DNA from: Clostridiales bacterium
GTDB lineage: Bacteria > Bacillota > Desulfotomaculia > Desulfotomaculales > VENG01
Assembly (NCBI GenBank): GCA_021736985.1
Contig: JAIPEW010000007.1
Location: forward strand, 1 to 64,000
DNA: 64,000 nucleotides
Direction: 5' to 3'
Shown here: positions 43,573 to 56,714 of the stretch, in pieces
Layout: every line of letters begins with the position of its first letter
Position numbering within the stretch: position 1 is the stretch's first letter
Program-made: the position numbers and the translations under genes
The notes under the pieces: generated by a model
What the model was told of the DNA's origin: nothing
Database searches by the model: none
What the model saw: only the letters and a program-made list of their open reading frames with translations

Positions 43573-44622
43573 TTACACTGCGCATTTCTCTATTAAATGA
43601 ACTGAAGAACTCTTAAAGCCAACCCATAAATTATCACCAACTGAAATAGACATTTCATGTACAGCCTGTGAATTTAAGCTGCATATTAAGGGAACTCCTA
43701 TATCAATAATTAACTTATAAATAACTCCATGGTTTATAACATCTAACACTTTTCCTTCAAATTTATTTTGAAATTTACCGTCAATCAGGTCCTTAGAAAC
43801 AACAACCTCTTCAGGGCGGACAACAACTTTAACCTTCCCTTTACTCCTAGCAGAAGCAAGCAAACTCACACCTTCAGCCAGGCTTACTTCATCTTCGTTT
43901 ACATGTCCTTCAAAAATGTTTTCTATACCTACAAACTTCGCTACAAAATCTGTTTGCGGCCTGTAGAATATCTCCTCCGGCGTACCTACCTGTATGAGTT
44001 TTCCATCATACATCACACCTATACGGTCTGCCAGATACATTGCCTCATTAAAATCATGAGTTACATGAACTGTTGTTGTCTTTAATGTCTGGTGTATTTT
44101 TTTTAATTCCTGCTGAAATTTTTCTTTTGAGCGCGGGTCCAGGGCACTTAACGGTTCGTCCAGCAAAAGAATTTTTGGTGAGACAATTAAAGCCCTTGCC
44201 AGTGCAGTTCTCTGCTGCTCCCCACCACTCAGCGTACTCGGGTAACGGTTTAGCAATTGTTCAATACCTAGCAATTGAATCATTTGCTCAAGCTTGCTTT
44301 GAATCTCATTTACAGGAATTTTTTTTATCTTAGCCCCGAAAACTATATTTTCCTTAACCGTTAAATGTGGAAAAAGAGCATAGTCCTGATAAACAAAGCC
44401 TATTTCCCTGTGCTCTGGATATAGAGAAAGCAAATTATGGTCTTTAAATAAAATTCTCCCCTGTTCCGGGTAATACATGCCTGCAATTGTCTCTAAAACA
44501 ACTGTTTTGCCAGTACCCGTAGGGCCTAAAATTACAAAGTATTCTCCGTTATTAATCTCTAAACTTAAATTTTTTAATTGAAAATCACCAAGCTGTTTAT
44601 ATACTTTCTCCATCTTCAGCAA
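43573..44622 (-). CDS. Molybdate/tungstate ABC transporter ATPase (ModC/WtpC-like)
   Basis: 349 residues: Walker A LGPTGTGKT (~34-42), Q-loop YQDYALFPHLTV, signature LSGGEQQRTALARAL, Walker B ILLLDEPLSALD, then a C-terminal TOBE-type oxyanion domain. TTG start nine bases after aggagg. With the ModB-type permease and two ModA-type binding proteins it completes the importer. Context with moeA, mogA, fdhD and Moco riboswitches supports molybdate or tungstate as substrate. Confidence 0.9.
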   Translation of the reverse strand: MLKMEKVYKQLGDFQLKNLSLEINNGEYFVILGPTGTGKTVVLETIAGMYYPEQGRILFKDHNLLSLYPEHREIGFVYQDYALFPHLTVKENIVFGAKIKKIPVNEIQSKLEQMIQLLGIEQLLNRYPSTLSGGEQQRTALARALIVSPKILLLDEPLSALDPRSKEKFQQELKKIHQTLKTTTVHVTHDFNEAMYLADRIGVMYDGKLIQVGTPEEIFYRPQTDFVAKFVGIENIFEGHVNEDEVSLAEGVSLLASARSKGKVKVVVRPEEVVVSKDLIDGKFQNKFEGKVLDVINHGVIYKLIIDIGVPLICSLNSQAVHEMSISVGDNLWVGFKSSSVHLIEKCAV

Positions 44623-44652: not shown

Positions 44653-45471
44653 TCAATAAACTGGTTTAAAACCATGTTTTTTATAAATTTTTTCTCCTTC
44701 TTCATTAGTGACAAAATCAACAAATTTCTTTGCAAGCTCTTTTTTATCAGACCCCGAAACTACACAGGCAGGAATTGTCTTTATTTTATTTTTTTCTTTA
44801 TCAATATTTACAAAGTTAACTTTTTTAACCCCTGCAACATTCTCTCTCCAGACAATTGATGCATCAGCTTGTTTCATCGTTAGATATACAACCAGTTCAT
44901 TTACAGTAGGACTTTCTGCAATTACATTTTTACTAACTTCTTTCTGAATATTGTTTTCTTTGAGAATTTTTTGAGCTAATTTCCCAACAGCACATGCTGA
45001 TTCATCACCTAAAACGATTTTTACTCCATCTTTGGCCAGGTCTTCCAGGCTGTCTATGTTTGCAGGATTTCCCTCAGAAACTCCTATTACTGGAATATGA
45101 TAGGCTACATCTTTGCCGTATTCTACTAAGTCCTTATCAACTGCTTCCTGGTAATAATATTTTGCCCCGGAGACATAAACATCACCTTCTCCGCTTATTT
45201 CAAGCTGGCTCAGGTTTTGTGCTGATCCTGCATATGAATAATCTATTCTAACTCCGTACTTTTCTTCAAACAATTTTCCTATATCATCCATCGGTTTTCT
45301 CAATCCTGCACCACTGTAAACATGCAGAGATTCTTTTACTTCATTCTTACTTTGATCACTTTTCTCTTCAGCATTGTCACTTGAATTATTACTGCCAGCA
45401 CCACAACCTGCCAGTATTATACAAATTGCTGCTATCAGGGAAATTAGAATAAATAACCTTTTACCAAACAT
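44653..45471 (-). CDS. ModA-type molybdate/tungstate-binding lipoprotein, paralogue 2
   Basis: 272 residues; lipobox LAGC, then a hydrophilic linker and a type II periplasmic-binding fold: SLHVYSGAGLRKPMDDIGKL, DYSYAGSAQ-like RIDYSYAGSAQNL, GDVYVSGAKYYY, GDESACAVGKLAQKIL and VYLTMKQADASIVWREN. Paralogous to 46333-47142, with the permease gene between them. Two binding proteins for one permease may separate molybdate from tungstate. Confidence 0.88.
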   Translation of the reverse strand: MFGKRLFILISLIAAICIILAGCGAGSNNSSDNAEEKSDQSKNEVKESLHVYSGAGLRKPMDDIGKLFEEKYGVRIDYSYAGSAQNLSQLEISGEGDVYVSGAKYYYQEAVDKDLVEYGKDVAYHIPVIGVSEGNPANIDSLEDLAKDGVKIVLGDESACAVGKLAQKILKENNIQKEVSKNVIAESPTVNELVVYLTMKQADASIVWRENVAGVKKVNFVNIDKEKNKIKTIPACVVSGSDKKELAKKFVDFVTNEEGEKIYKKHGFKPVY

Positions 45472-45495: not shown

Positions 45496-46308
45496 CTATA
45501 TCCCGGTACGTGAATGCTCCGTACCTCCTCCGAAATACTGAAAAACAAACAGAGATACCAGGGATATGATTATTAATATAGTTGCTGACGCCATGGCAAG
45601 TTCAAGATCACCTGTAGACATATTTAAAAATAACGATATTGGAAGAGTTTCAGTTCTCATCCGGGTAGCACCTGCCAGCATAAGGGCAGCACCAAATTCT
45701 CCGATAGCACGGGCCCAGGTTATAATTATTCCTGCCACCAGCCCGTTTTTAGCCAGCGGAAGCGTGACTTTAAAAAAAGACTGAACTTTATTGCATCCCA
45801 GGGTACGGGCAACAAACTCAAGCCTCGGATCAATGTTTTCTATAGTTGTTTTCAGGACTCTCAACATATATGGTACATTCACAAAAAATTGGGCCAAAAT
45901 AATCCCGTTTATTGTAAAGACAAAATCCAGTCCAATGCCTGATAAGAAATTACCAAAACAAGAATTTCCGAAGAGAATCAATAATGCAACCCCTGCCACA
46001 ATAGGCGGCAGAGCCATGGGAATTTCCAGGATAGAATTTACCAATTTTTGACCCGGAAAACTTAAACGCGCCATTCCATACGCAATAGGAAGAGACAAAA
46101 TTATACATAATAATGTGGAGACTACAGAAGTATAAAGGCTTAGTTTTATAGCAAATTGGATTTCTTTAATCTGGATACTGGTAGCAAAACTAGGTATCCC
46201 TTTTATTAATACCATGGAAATAGTACCAACAATAAACGCTGTAAGCAGCGCTATACAAACAGAAACAACTGCAGTAAAAACTGCATTCATGCTGTTATTA
46301 TTCTTCAT
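45496..46308 (-). CDS. Molybdate/tungstate ABC transporter permease (ModB/WtpB-like)
   Basis: 270 residues with six transmembrane helices and the EAA-type loop EFVARTLGCNKVQSFFKVTLP followed by ARAIGEFGAALMLAG, a molybdate/sulfate permease signature. The last residues diverge, which is usual. It lies between the two binding-protein genes in a single transcriptional direction. Confidence 0.9.
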   Translation of the reverse strand: MKNNNSMNAVFTAVVSVCIALLTAFIVGTISMVLIKGIPSFATSIQIKEIQFAIKLSLYTSVVSTLLCIILSLPIAYGMARLSFPGQKLVNSILEIPMALPPIVAGVALLILFGNSCFGNFLSGIGLDFVFTINGIILAQFFVNVPYMLRVLKTTIENIDPRLEFVARTLGCNKVQSFFKVTLPLAKNGLVAGIIITWARAIGEFGAALMLAGATRMRTETLPISLFLNMSTGDLELAMASATILIIISLVSLFVFQYFGGGTEHSRTGI

Positions 46309-46332: not shown

Positions 46333-47142
46333 CTATTGAACTGGTTTAAAGCCGTGTTTTTCGTAAATCTGTTTTCCTTCTTTAGATGCTACAAAATCAA
46401 CAAACTTTCTGGCCATTTCCTTATTATCAGATTTTACAGCCGCACATGCTGGAATAGTTTTAATCTTATTCTTTTCTTCAGCTATCTCTACAATTTCCAC
46501 ATCTTCCACGTTTGCAATATTATCTTCCCATACCAGTGAAGCTTCTCCCTGCTTCATGGTCAAATATACAACCAGTTCATTTACAGTTGCAGCCTTGGCA
46601 ACAACATTTTTAGCAACATCTTCCTGTATATTATTATCCTTTAGTATTTTCTGGGCTAACCTACCTATAGCACATGCAGATTCATCCCCCAGAACTACTT
46701 TTACTCCATCTTTTGTTAGGTCTTCTAAACTCTGAATACCTGCCGGGTTACCCTCGGGCACTCCTATTACAGGTATATGGTAAGCAACGTTTTTCTCATA
46801 ATCAACAAGCCCGTCTTCCTTAGCTTTTTCAAAATAATATTTTGCACCAGGCACATATACATCACCCTTGCTGCTCAGTTTCAGCTGGTTCAAGCACTGG
46901 GCAGAACCGGCATAAGAAAATTCGATTTTCACCCCGTACTTCTCTTCAAAAAGTGCTCCTATATCATCCATCGGTTTTCTGAGCCCGGCTCCGCTGAATA
47001 CATGCAGTGATTTAACTTCACCCTGCCCCTGTTCTTTATCGCTGCTTCCTGAATCTTCGCTGCCGCTTGTACCACACCCGGTCAAAATTAAAAGACTTGA
47101 TAGCATAATCACCAATAAAACTACAACTCTTTTTCTTAACAT
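46333..47142 (-). CDS. ModA-type molybdate/tungstate-binding lipoprotein, paralogue 1
   Basis: 269 residues: signal peptide and lipobox LTGC, serine/glycine linker, then SLHVFSGAGLRKPMDDIGAL, FSYAGSAQCLNQL, GDESACAIGRLAQKIL and the C-terminal motif YEKHGFKPV. Over the whole length it resembles paralogue 2. The oxyanion pocket residues (SGAG, SYAGS) are the same in both, so specificity is not decided by eye. Confidence 0.88.
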   Translation of the reverse strand: MLRKRVVVLLVIMLSSLLILTGCGTSGSEDSGSSDKEQGQGEVKSLHVFSGAGLRKPMDDIGALFEEKYGVKIEFSYAGSAQCLNQLKLSSKGDVYVPGAKYYFEKAKEDGLVDYEKNVAYHIPVIGVPEGNPAGIQSLEDLTKDGVKVVLGDESACAIGRLAQKILKDNNIQEDVAKNVVAKAATVNELVVYLTMKQGEASLVWEDNIANVEDVEIVEIAEEKNKIKTIPACAAVKSDNKEMARKFVDFVASKEGKQIYEKHGFKPVQ

Positions 47143-47353: not shown

Positions 47354-48133
47354 TTAATGACCGCAATAGCAATATTGCCTGCAGCCGGTAAAAAAAGCAA
47401 TGCCAGACACTGTAACACCGTAAAAAACTACCGGCTTATCTTTAATCAAGGAGCGATATGTATTATTTACCATAGTACTTCCAGTAGCAAAAATAATATT
47501 GCTCCACTTAATAGCTTCTTCAGTGTTATCAGCGTGTTCAATTATAACACCATATTTTCTGCGCCCCAGGTTATCAGGATCAAGGTCTGTAACCCGGATA
47601 GAATAATTGCGGGCAAGATAATCAACCATGGCAGGCTGTAAACCTACAAAAGCAATACGTGGATCAGGACAAATATCAACTACGTACTTCACCAGGTTAC
47701 GTGCACATACTTCGGGTTCTTCATCCTTGCAGTGTACTGAACAATCTACCCATCCTAAGTGCCTTAATACAGCATTAATACAAGCGATAAATATTGCCCG
47801 TTCAAAATTATCTTTTAGTTCTAACCCTAATACGTCTCTAATTGTACCGTTAAAATCTCCCGGCATATCAGTAAATGCCTGCCCGATTGAATTAAGAAAA
47901 CGGGCTTCAATCATTACTTCTCTTCCTTTAACCAGGGGAAAATCTTTTCTTTCTGGATTACCAATAGATTCCTGCGGTGCAAGAGTGCGCGCTGAAATTA
48001 TATGTACCTCACGATCCAACAGCCCGTATTCGTCTGCAATTTGTTGAAGTGCTTCCTGCAAATTTTCATAGCTTAAATCTTCAAGCTTGATACTGCGATA
48101 ATATTTCTGTCCGTTACCAGGTATAAGTAACAC
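47354..48133 (-). CDS. DUF364-type (Rossmann-like, heavy-metal chelation-like) protein
   Basis: 259 residues. The C-terminal half shows a Rossmann-like DUF364 fold (RIAFVGLQPAMVDYLARNY, VTDLDPDNLG, IIFATGSTMVNNTYR, FYGVTVSG). The N-terminal half has the companion DUF4213-type region. Such proteins often lie beside molybdate or tungstate transport genes and are suspected to handle metal or metal-cofactor. The GTG start directly follows aaggag, so the exact start is uncertain. First gene after the two tandem riboswitches. Confidence 0.75.
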   Translation of the reverse strand: MLLIPGNGQKYYRSIKLEDLSYENLQEALQQIADEYGLLDREVHIISARTLAPQESIGNPERKDFPLVKGREVMIEARFLNSIGQAFTDMPGDFNGTIRDVLGLELKDNFERAIFIACINAVLRHLGWVDCSVHCKDEEPEVCARNLVKYVVDICPDPRIAFVGLQPAMVDYLARNYSIRVTDLDPDNLGRRKYGVIIEHADNTEEAIKWSNIIFATGSTMVNNTYRSLIKDKPVVFYGVTVSGIAFFTGCRQYCYCGH

Positions 48134-48244: not shown

Positions 48245-48269
48245 AAAAAAACCGGAGTTTTAACTCCGG
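48245..48269 (-). terminator. Terminator of proximal Moco-type riboswitch
   Basis: CCGGAGTT/AACTCCGG stem followed by seven T on the minus strand, ~45 bp past the proximal aptamer. Confidence 0.9.
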
Positions 48270-48312
48270 CAGAAAAAAGCAACGGCTATACCGCTAACAG
48301 CAAGTAAAGCCT

Positions 48313-48404
48313 GCTCCTTTCCAACCGGGAGGCATAAAGGTTTCCCCGTATACCCTATCGTTCACGTACCATACTTAACAAGCTTAGGCAGCATGAATCG
48401 GAGC
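48313..48404 (-). ncRNA. Moco/Tuco-type riboswitch aptamer, proximal copy
   Basis: P1 GCTCC / GGAGC encloses the conserved blocks TGCCTAAG, GGGAAACC, ATGCCTCCCGGTTGGAAAGG. This follows the layout I know for the molybdenum/tungsten cofactor RNA motif. The compact interior suggests the form with fewer stems. A terminator follows, then the DUF364 and molybdate-transport genes. High cofactor should turn them off. Confidence 0.85.
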
Positions 48405-48429
48405 AAAATATTTTGTTTTACATAACAAT

Positions 48430-48473
48430 AAAAAAAACCGGGGCTACATGGCAAAAGCACGTAGGGCCTCCGG
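48430..48473 (-). terminator. Terminator of distal Moco-type riboswitch
   Basis: CCGGAGGCCCTACGTG ... CATGTAGCCCCGG hairpin followed by eight T on the minus strand, between the two aptamers. Confidence 0.88.
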
Positions 48474-48493
48474 TTTTCTGCCGGGATATTCCT

Positions 48494-48611
48494 ACTCCTT
48501 TCCACCACGGGGGGCAAGCCAGTTTCCCGACCGCCGTTTGCCAGGTTTTATAACACCCGGCGCGGCTGAACACCATAGATATTGTTTCCTTAGGCAGTAT
48601 CAGCTCGGAGC
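48494..48611 (-). ncRNA. Moco/Tuco-type riboswitch aptamer, distal copy
   Basis: P1 GCTCC / GGAGT, then CTGCCTAAGG, a GC-rich arm (GCCGGGT...ACCTGGC), GGGAAACTGG and GCCCCCCGTGGTGGAAAGGAG. Same consensus order as the proximal copy but with a longer inner arm. It has its own terminator at 48430-48473, so two complete riboswitches act in series. Confidence 0.85.
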
Positions 48612-48718
48612 GCATATTTTAATTTTGTAAAATTTAGCTTCTATAAAACTTATTAAATTCCTTTAAAAAGCACCAACTTTTTTCTTTCCACATATCCTGT
48701 AAAAAAGGAGGGAGTATT

Positions 48719-49039
48719 TTGCAGCTTTATTTATTTGGCTCCGTTGCCAGAAATACTCATAATACGGATAGTGATATTGATATTATTGCCTTTAATGCTT
48801 ATGGTATGCCTTTCAGGCAATTTGCAAAAAAACTCAGTAAGCATGCACTTGAAGCCGGGGGAAAACTGGATTTATTTGTGCCAGGCTTTAATAGGCTTAA
48901 TGCTGTATATGATCCCGGCAGGGTAATTTTTTTATCTTCCAAGAACTGGCCAAAAATAAAAAAAGAAATGAAACCGATTAAACTAGATGATTTAATTACA
49001 ATGCTGGAAAAAAAACAACAAAGTATAAATCATGCTTAA
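48719..49039 (+). CDS. Minimal nucleotidyltransferase-domain protein (MNT-like)
   Basis: 106 residues with the polymerase-beta-like motif GSVARNTHNTDSDIDIIAF (G9-S10 and D19, D21). Family members include antitoxin-like MntA of HEPN/MNT pairs. No HEPN toxin gene is adjacent, so role is unknown. TTG start 6 nt after aggaggg. The ORF is complete and followed by a strong terminator. Confidence 0.75.
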   Translation: MQLYLFGSVARNTHNTDSDIDIIAFNAYGMPFRQFAKKLSKHALEAGGKLDLFVPGFNRLNAVYDPGRVIFLSSKNWPKIKKEMKPIKLDDLITMLEKKQQSINHA

Positions 49040-56174: not shown

Positions 56175-56351
56175 CTAAAAACATCCTAACTCACAACTGT
56201 GAATTTTTAAACCGAGTTCATCGCATAATTTGCCCACTTCATTCATTGGCATACCCAACTCTTCAGCTGCCTTACGGGCAGAAGTACAACTAATCTTACC
56301 ATTAACGGATACTTCCTTTAGCTTTTGCTTAAATTTTTCCCTATCTGTCAA
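56175..56351 (-). CDS. Conserved-type 58-residue cysteine protein in moeA operon
   Basis: From the TTG at 56351 (ribosome site ggtgggg) the frame gives 58 residues: a charged N-terminus, SCTSARKAAEELGMPMNEVG, KLCDELGLKI and the end HSCELGCF. Four cysteines and a helix-turn-helix-like core. I recall similar small proteins beside moeA in Moorella/Desulfotomaculum types. It could bind a metal or deliver sulfur or molybdate; no function is established. It is too short for many automatic calls because of the TTG start. Confidence 0.75.
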   Translation of the reverse strand: MTDREKFKQKLKEVSVNGKISCTSARKAAEELGMPMNEVGKLCDELGLKIHSCELGCF

Positions 56352-56480: not shown

Positions 56481-56502
56481 CGCAATATCTCAATCATTTT
56501 GA

Positions 56503-56648
56503 GTACTCCTTTCCAGTACGGGAGGCATGCCGGTTTCCCTTTTTAATTGCTAAAGTAAAGCAAAGGCATACCCTCAAGCTGGCAAACAGCTTTCGTTCAG
56601 CAGCCATAGCTATGGAAAAAACAGCCTTAGGCATACTAAATCGGAGAC
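56503..56648 (-). ncRNA. Moco/Tuco-type riboswitch aptamer of the moeA operon
   Basis: P1 GTCTCC / GGAGTAC encloses ATGCCTAAGGCTG, an inner helical region, GGGAAACCGGCATGCCTCCCG and ACTGGAAAGGAG. This is the same consensus as the two aptamers at 48313-48611, with longer inner arms. It stands before the 58-residue gene and both moeA genes, giving feedback by the finished cofactor. Confidence 0.87.
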
Positions 56649-56714
56649 CTTATATTTTATTATATAAACTATAATTAATTACTAAATATGATTTTCCTGC
56701 ATAACAGTAAAAAT

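Follow-up and report, generated by a model that had tools for sequence, protein, structure and literature searches.

Regulski et al. (2008; PMC2408646) tied the presence of a P3 stem in Moco/Wco (Tuco) riboswitches (Rfam RF01055) to sensing of the molybdenum cofactor (Moco), and its absence to sensing of the tungsten cofactor (Wco). Presence or absence of P3 is so far the sole handle on how such an RNA might discriminate between the two cofactors, and that founding paper assigned the P3-less class to Wco without a demonstration of direct binding. Same-ligand tandems have been published, namely, a triplet in Syntrophomonas wolfei (PMC2408646) and 13 doublets and 2 triplets of Moco riboswitches along with tandems of Wco riboswitches (PMC9481103); both papers explain them as sharper, "digital" switches for a single ligand. 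Here we describe a leader that joins a P3-bearing to a P3-less aptamer, found on the minus strand of a 64,000-nucleotide stretch of DNA from a Clostridiales bacterium (the window).

Anatomy and predicted switching of the leader

A cmscan search against RF01055 at its gathering threshold (family cut-off, 36 bits) gave two full-length matches (model positions 1 to 135 in each), the upstream copy at 45.4 bits (E = 1.2e-7) and the downstream copy at 61.8 bits (E = 1.9e-12). Read 5' to 3', the minus strand carries the upstream aptamer, terminator 1 (ACCGGAGGCCCUACGUG...CAUGUAGCCCCGGU followed by T8), the downstream aptamer, terminator 2 (GCCGGAGUUAAAACUCCGGU followed by T7), and then the DUF364 gene, which starts at 48133 (Table 1). 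A sequence-only reading of this DNA had proposed two complete Moco-type riboswitches in series, each with its own intrinsic terminator and with differing inner arms; all of these features were found, the strand (minus) being our addition, and the difference in the inner arm is a 7-bp P3 stem that is present in the upstream copy and absent from the downstream copy. That reading had named a covariance-model scan as the check, and failure of the model or loss of core bases in one copy as the grounds for rejection: both copies pass the model, but the second ground applies in part, since two core positions of the upstream copy differ from the family. Both aptamers keep CUCCGA, the CCUAAG...UAUGG tetraloop receptor, the GAAA tetraloop, and UGGAAAGGAG, but in our comparison with RF01055 the canonical AGGG/CCUCCC at the base of P4 is missing from the upstream copy, where ACGG/CCCCCC stands instead. 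Because 9 other P3-bearing and 5 P3-less RNAs have the same ACGG/CCCCCC core, we call the upstream copy a variant rather than a typical RF01055 member.

Table 1. Coordinates of the leader, its operon, and related features in the window
Feature	Position	Strand	Remarks
Upstream (5') aptamer, RF01055, P3-bearing ACGG/CCCCCC variant	48479..48622	-	Core 48614-48492
CUCCG of upstream P1	48606..48610	-	Predicted antiterminator; possible partner, CGGAG 48472-48468 (terminator 1)
P3 hairpin of upstream aptamer	48540..48561	-	GCCGGGU...ACCUGGC; 7 pairs
ACGG replacing family AGGG (5' base of P4), upstream aptamer	48534..48537	-	
CCCCCC replacing family CCUCCC (3' base of P4), upstream aptamer	48509..48514	-	
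Intrinsic terminator 1, after upstream aptamer	48430..48474	-	ACCGGAGGCC...GCCCCGGU then T8; hairpin 48474-48438; sequence and fold
Downstream aptamer, RF01055, P3-less (Wco/Tuco type of Regulski et al.)	48296..48415	-	61.8 bits
GCUCCG of downstream P1	48399..48404	-	Predicted antiterminator; possible partner, CGGAGU 48268-48263 (terminator 2)
Intrinsic terminator 2, after downstream aptamer	48245..48270	-	GCCGGAGUUAAAACUCCGGU then T7; hairpin 48270-48251
DUF364 protein (putative heavy-metal chelation), first operon gene	47354..48133	-	PF04016, 42.1 bits
ModA-type substrate-binding protein 1	46333..47142	-	TIGR01256, 81.1 bits (cut-off 62.5)
ModB-type permease	45496..46308	-	TIGR01581 and TIGR02141, above cut-off
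ModA-type substrate-binding protein 2	44653..45471	-	TIGR01256, 98.3 bits; 64.6% identity to protein 1
WtpC/ModC-like ATPase	43573..44622	-	NF040840, 427.5 bits, just below cut-off 440
Canonical P3+ Moco aptamer ahead of moeA, separate from the tandem	56490..56658	-	RF01055, 49.3 bits
IKI..CxLGCF small protein	56175..56351	-	Other loci: L102, L104, L106, L107, L109, L116, L120, L124, L143, L144, L149, L150, L153, L156, L162, L165, L172, L173, L178, L184, L186, L194, L199

The 5' strand of P1 (CUCCG) has two alternative partners in both units, the 3' side of P1 or CGGAG in the 5' arm of the terminator. When the transcript ends before the terminator 3' arm, the computed fold that holds the terminator arm has −54.4 kcal/mol in the upstream unit, versus −49.6 for the aptamer fold, and such folds have −54.4 to −57.7 kcal/mol in the downstream unit, versus −41.7. 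This folding model predicts an OFF switch in both units. In the unbound state, the terminator 5' arm would be held by the 5' side of the aptamer and RNA polymerase would read on; with ligand, P1 would close, the terminator arm would be freed, and transcription would stop. Once completed, both terminators are included in the minimum-energy fold of the full-length RNA, which makes the OFF model a kinetic one. In the same genome, the wtpA leader and both units have terminators that start with CCGGAG, which is complementary to the aptamer CUCCG; a general GGAG in the 5' arm of terminators behind Moco RNAs was not found (4 of 64; shuffle mean, 1.4), and we therefore argue for the CUCCG/CGGAG switch helix in this genome alone.

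With two predicted OFF units in series, expression would require both to be unbound, and the operon, encoding the DUF364 protein, two ModA-type binding proteins, a ModB-type permease, and a WtpC-like ATPase, would be made only in that state. Such an arrangement should give a steeper response if the units bind the same ligand and a NOR gate if the ligands differ. The two-step gate before a metal-transport operon envisaged from the sequence alone agrees with what we found, as two aptamer-terminator units, both predicted to be OFF, precede an operon for a Mo/W-type transporter.

DUF364/DUF4213 "heavy-metal chelation" proteins are the first genes behind Moco-family riboswitches in the window, in Desulfoscipio (L050, 1501-2268), and at a few control loci, which suggests that they have a role in Mo/W handling. 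On the opposite strand beside the leader lies a short MntA-like nucleotidyltransferase ORF (48719-49039, plus strand), which may be a fragment because its family match is confined to the first ∼24 residues.

Two further RF01055-type RNAs lie elsewhere in the genome, at C57:92887-93004 (65.2 bits) and C40:80317-80437 (33.4 bits, sub-threshold). The latter (L005, 1501-1621, in G000) keeps P4 and GGAAAGGAG and has lost CUCCGA and CCUAAG; it is possibly a divergent or decaying copy. A P3-less RNA in the same genome precedes a clear WtpA (429 bits; cut-off, 355). Directly between a Moco-family riboswitch and moeA or moaA, 24 of 105 RNA loci, with P3+ and P3-less RNAs alike, encode a small protein of ∼58 to 80 amino acids ending in IKI..CxLGCF; the two members that we tested had no Pfam or NCBIfam match, and the protein appears to be a so far undescribed component of Mo/W-cofactor metabolism.

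The ACGG/CCCCCC subtype and its gene context

We searched for relatives of the upstream copy in three ways: with the Rfam model in related genomes, with a second model made from three RNAs of this kind, and with a pattern requiring both core changes; the two wider variant scans overlap in genomes and are centered within the phylum. Nine further RNAs in 8 other genomes combine ACGG/CCCCCC with P3, and 5 RNAs have ACGG/CCCCCC without P3; some of these RNAs entered the tallies through a pattern that demands both core changes together, which biases the correlation of the two changes, while gene context lies outside the selection. Reversed-pattern controls for the two-change pattern gave zero in all genomes listed. 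In G001, the sole same-family relative searched, both of the RF01055 matches (n = 2) belong to the variant subtype. Across the 10 P3-bearing variant RNAs, the upstream copy included, 96.4% of cells pair and the covariation score is 0.644, versus 0.226 for shuffles and ≤0.141 for slid partners; the alignment was fitted to the structure, so the absolute values are inflated, but the margin over the controls is large. Changes on both sides occur at all seven pairs of P3. Under the variant model, which was built partly from it, the upstream aptamer scores 143 bits.

The lower RF01055 score of the upstream aptamer and its two departures at strongly conserved core positions could signify a decaying duplicate, with regulation left to the downstream unit alone. 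We consider this very improbable: 9 other RNAs in 8 genomes show the same departures together with covarying helices, and the terminator and switch helix of the upstream unit are intact. Because both departures are conserved in relatives, they do not mark the copy as dead, and we rejected the idea of a degenerate aptamer on this evidence. Judged from these related sequences, the subtype to which the upstream copy belongs is a maintained one.

The first gene is TupA- or TupB-like at 7 of the 9 P3-bearing variant loci outside the window (G001 twice, G348, G174, G531, G524, and G532); of the other two loci, the one in G335 has a methyltransferase accompanied by a binding protein, and the one in G091 has an FN3 protein. 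None of the 9 has a Moco biosynthesis gene in first position, versus 19 of the 46 canonical P3+ RNAs (MoeA, n = 17; MoaA, n = 2) in a control set from across the phylum. Tup-like first genes follow 12 of those 46 canonical P3+ RNAs and 5 of the 31 canonical P3-less RNAs in the corresponding control set. The Tup-like context of the variants thus differs from that of canonical P3+ (P = 0.005) and P3-less (P = 0.001) RNAs by Fisher's test, although common ancestry among the variant loci makes the association weaker than these P values suggest. The TupA-like proteins score 185 to 241 bits, under the NCBIfam cut-off of 400, so their tungstate specificity is assigned by family only. A check at the genome level was uninformative, since AFOR_N, a tungsten-enzyme domain, was positive in 77 of 78 genomes.

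With Tup-like genes behind 12 of the 46 canonical P3+ RNAs, P3 is here a poor predictor of "molybdenum," and in view of these 12 and of the 7 variant loci out of 9, we dropped the presence of P3 as sufficient proof of Moco sensing at this locus. The canonical P3+ RNAs that lie directly before TupA-/TupB-like genes, against the published rule that P3+ RNAs accompany Moco genes alone, are L111, L114, L122, L127, L145, L146, L148, L155, L169, L174, L176, and L177. Two others (L151, 1452-2516; L157, 1465-2481) are followed by SsuA/NMT1-like binding proteins with a downstream ABC ATPase, a possible Mo/W-regulated importer. ACGG/CCCCCC RNAs also occur before large FN3- or SLH-domain surface proteins (L094, 838-957; L140, 1450-1547; L129, 1496-1593), which is unexpected for a cofactor riboswitch.

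A third ligand, such as another metal-pterin or a nucleotide form of the cofactor, might be recognized by the ACGG/CCCCCC subtype, in which case the gate would not simply combine Moco and Wco. The recurrence of the two correlated core changes in P3-bearing and P3-less RNAs fits such a ligand, as do the few subtype members whose downstream gene is not a Mo/W gene but an FN3, SLH, FecCD-linked, or methyltransferase gene. We think it improbable, however, because most P3-bearing members precede ordinary Tup-like importers and because no structure puts the ACGG/CCCCCC bases in contact with ligand.

Other tandems and the probable ligands of the two units

Our survey of close pairs (gap, ≤300 nt) drew on ∼100 relatives and a global pattern scan, the latter strict (13 loci) and hence an undercount. 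Of 47 close pairs, 46 are P3-less/P3-less; the sole mixed pair is the leader at 48245-48622, no other mixed tandem being found among the remaining 46. An apparent mixed tandem in G040 was ruled out, since its P3 is a long P2 loop, and three rows of the pair table that were scored as "P3+" (two for L042, one for L203) contain P4 sequence that the aligner had placed in P3 columns. P3-less aptamers also occur as triplets in series (L212, G008:C1:656534-657045; L233, G091:C56:7124-7759; L042, 2014-2562). Moco-family tandems in this bacterial order are far commoner than published counts suggest.

The orthologous operon of Desulfoscipio geothermicus (L048/L050) likewise has a tandem Moco-family leader before genes for DUF364, a substrate-binding protein (SBP), ModB, and WtpC, with proteins 60 to 73% identical to those in the window. 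It differs in that its two aptamers are P3-less with a canonical core, and in that its one SBP gene matches both SBPs of the window. As this tandem is P3-less twice, two different aptamer types are not a requirement of the serial arrangement; the altered upstream copy seems to be peculiar to the lineage studied here.

On balance we lean, at slightly better than even confidence, toward two serial OFF switches that both report sufficiency of the tungsten cofactor, or of a closely related W-pterin, through two aptamer subtypes; a same-ligand W sensor of this kind would give a steeper or two-threshold shut-off of oxyanion import. For the downstream unit, the P3 rule and the P3-less copy before the clear WtpA in the same genome both support Wco. 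The pointers for the upstream unit conflict, as the P3 rule indicates Moco and the gene context of its own subtype indicates tungsten; we weighed subtype context above the P3 rule because, across the larger sample, Tup-like and Moco contexts are not told apart by P3. The published same-ligand tandems of this family, the twice P3-less tandem of D. geothermicus, and the Tup-like genes at 7 of 9 variant loci all favor tungsten for both units. Against it stand the published P3 rule, which would make the upstream copy Moco sensing, and the importer, which is ModA-type here and need not be tungsten specific.

Those last two points also speak for a heterotypic NOR gate in which the upstream, P3+ unit reads Moco and the downstream, P3-less unit reads Wco, either of which would shut the operon. 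Regulski et al. tie P3 to Moco and its absence to the tungsten cofactor (PMC2408646), the same genome has a canonical P3+ RNA before moeA and a P3-less RNA before wtpA, a ModA-type importer does not discriminate Mo from W, and the leader is the sole mixed pair of 47. We nevertheless judge this gate unlikely. The upstream copy belongs to a subtype with mostly Tup-like and no Moco biosynthesis genes behind it, P3 does not separate the metals among the canonical P3+ loci, and the orthologous tandem does without P3; in addition, a dual importer closed by either metal would leave the cell starved of the other. The sequence-only reading had suggested from the inner arm that one copy could read the Mo cofactor and the other the W cofactor. 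Given the variant core, the covarying P3, and the gene context of the subtype and of the canonical P3+ RNAs, the P3 rule does not justify "upstream = Mo, downstream = W," and we did not retain that assignment.

Setting the preferred all-tungsten reading aside, one broader proposal strikes us as possible, if somewhat doubtful: the ACGG/CCCCCC P3-bearing RNAs may form an unrecognized subtype with a ligand preference of its own (Wco despite P3, Moco, or another Mo/W-pterin form), joined here to a P3-less Wco-type aptamer as the first known two-ligand NOR gate of the Moco family. A covarying, P3-bearing subtype that lies mostly before tungstate-type importers and carries two correlated core changes calls the P3 rule into question and names bases to mutate, and the presence of both subtypes on one transcript makes this leader a ready-made system for comparing them directly.

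Comparison with published riboswitches

Both copies share with the RF01055 aptamers of PMC2408646 the helices P1, P2, and P4, the GAAA tetraloop and its CCUAAG/UAUGG receptor, and UGGAAAGGAG; the upstream copy differs in joining P3 to the ACGG/CCCCCC core, a combination absent from the main text of that paper. More generally, we found no description of an ACGG/CCCCCC subtype in the main texts of PMC2408646 and PMC9481103. The leader resembles the published Moco and Wco tandems in its serial aptamers with separate terminators, but those have one aptamer type per series, whereas types are mixed here. The logic-gate table of PMC9481103 includes no Moco/Wco pair; a parallel is the SAM-I/AdoCbl tandem of metE (reviewed in PMC9481103), likewise two OFF units in series that make a NOR gate if the ligands differ, with the distinction that its ligands are proven to be different, a difference that is hypothetical for the present leader. 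The tandem is confirmed as a known kind of architecture; what is new is the aptamer variant and the rare combination in which it occurs.
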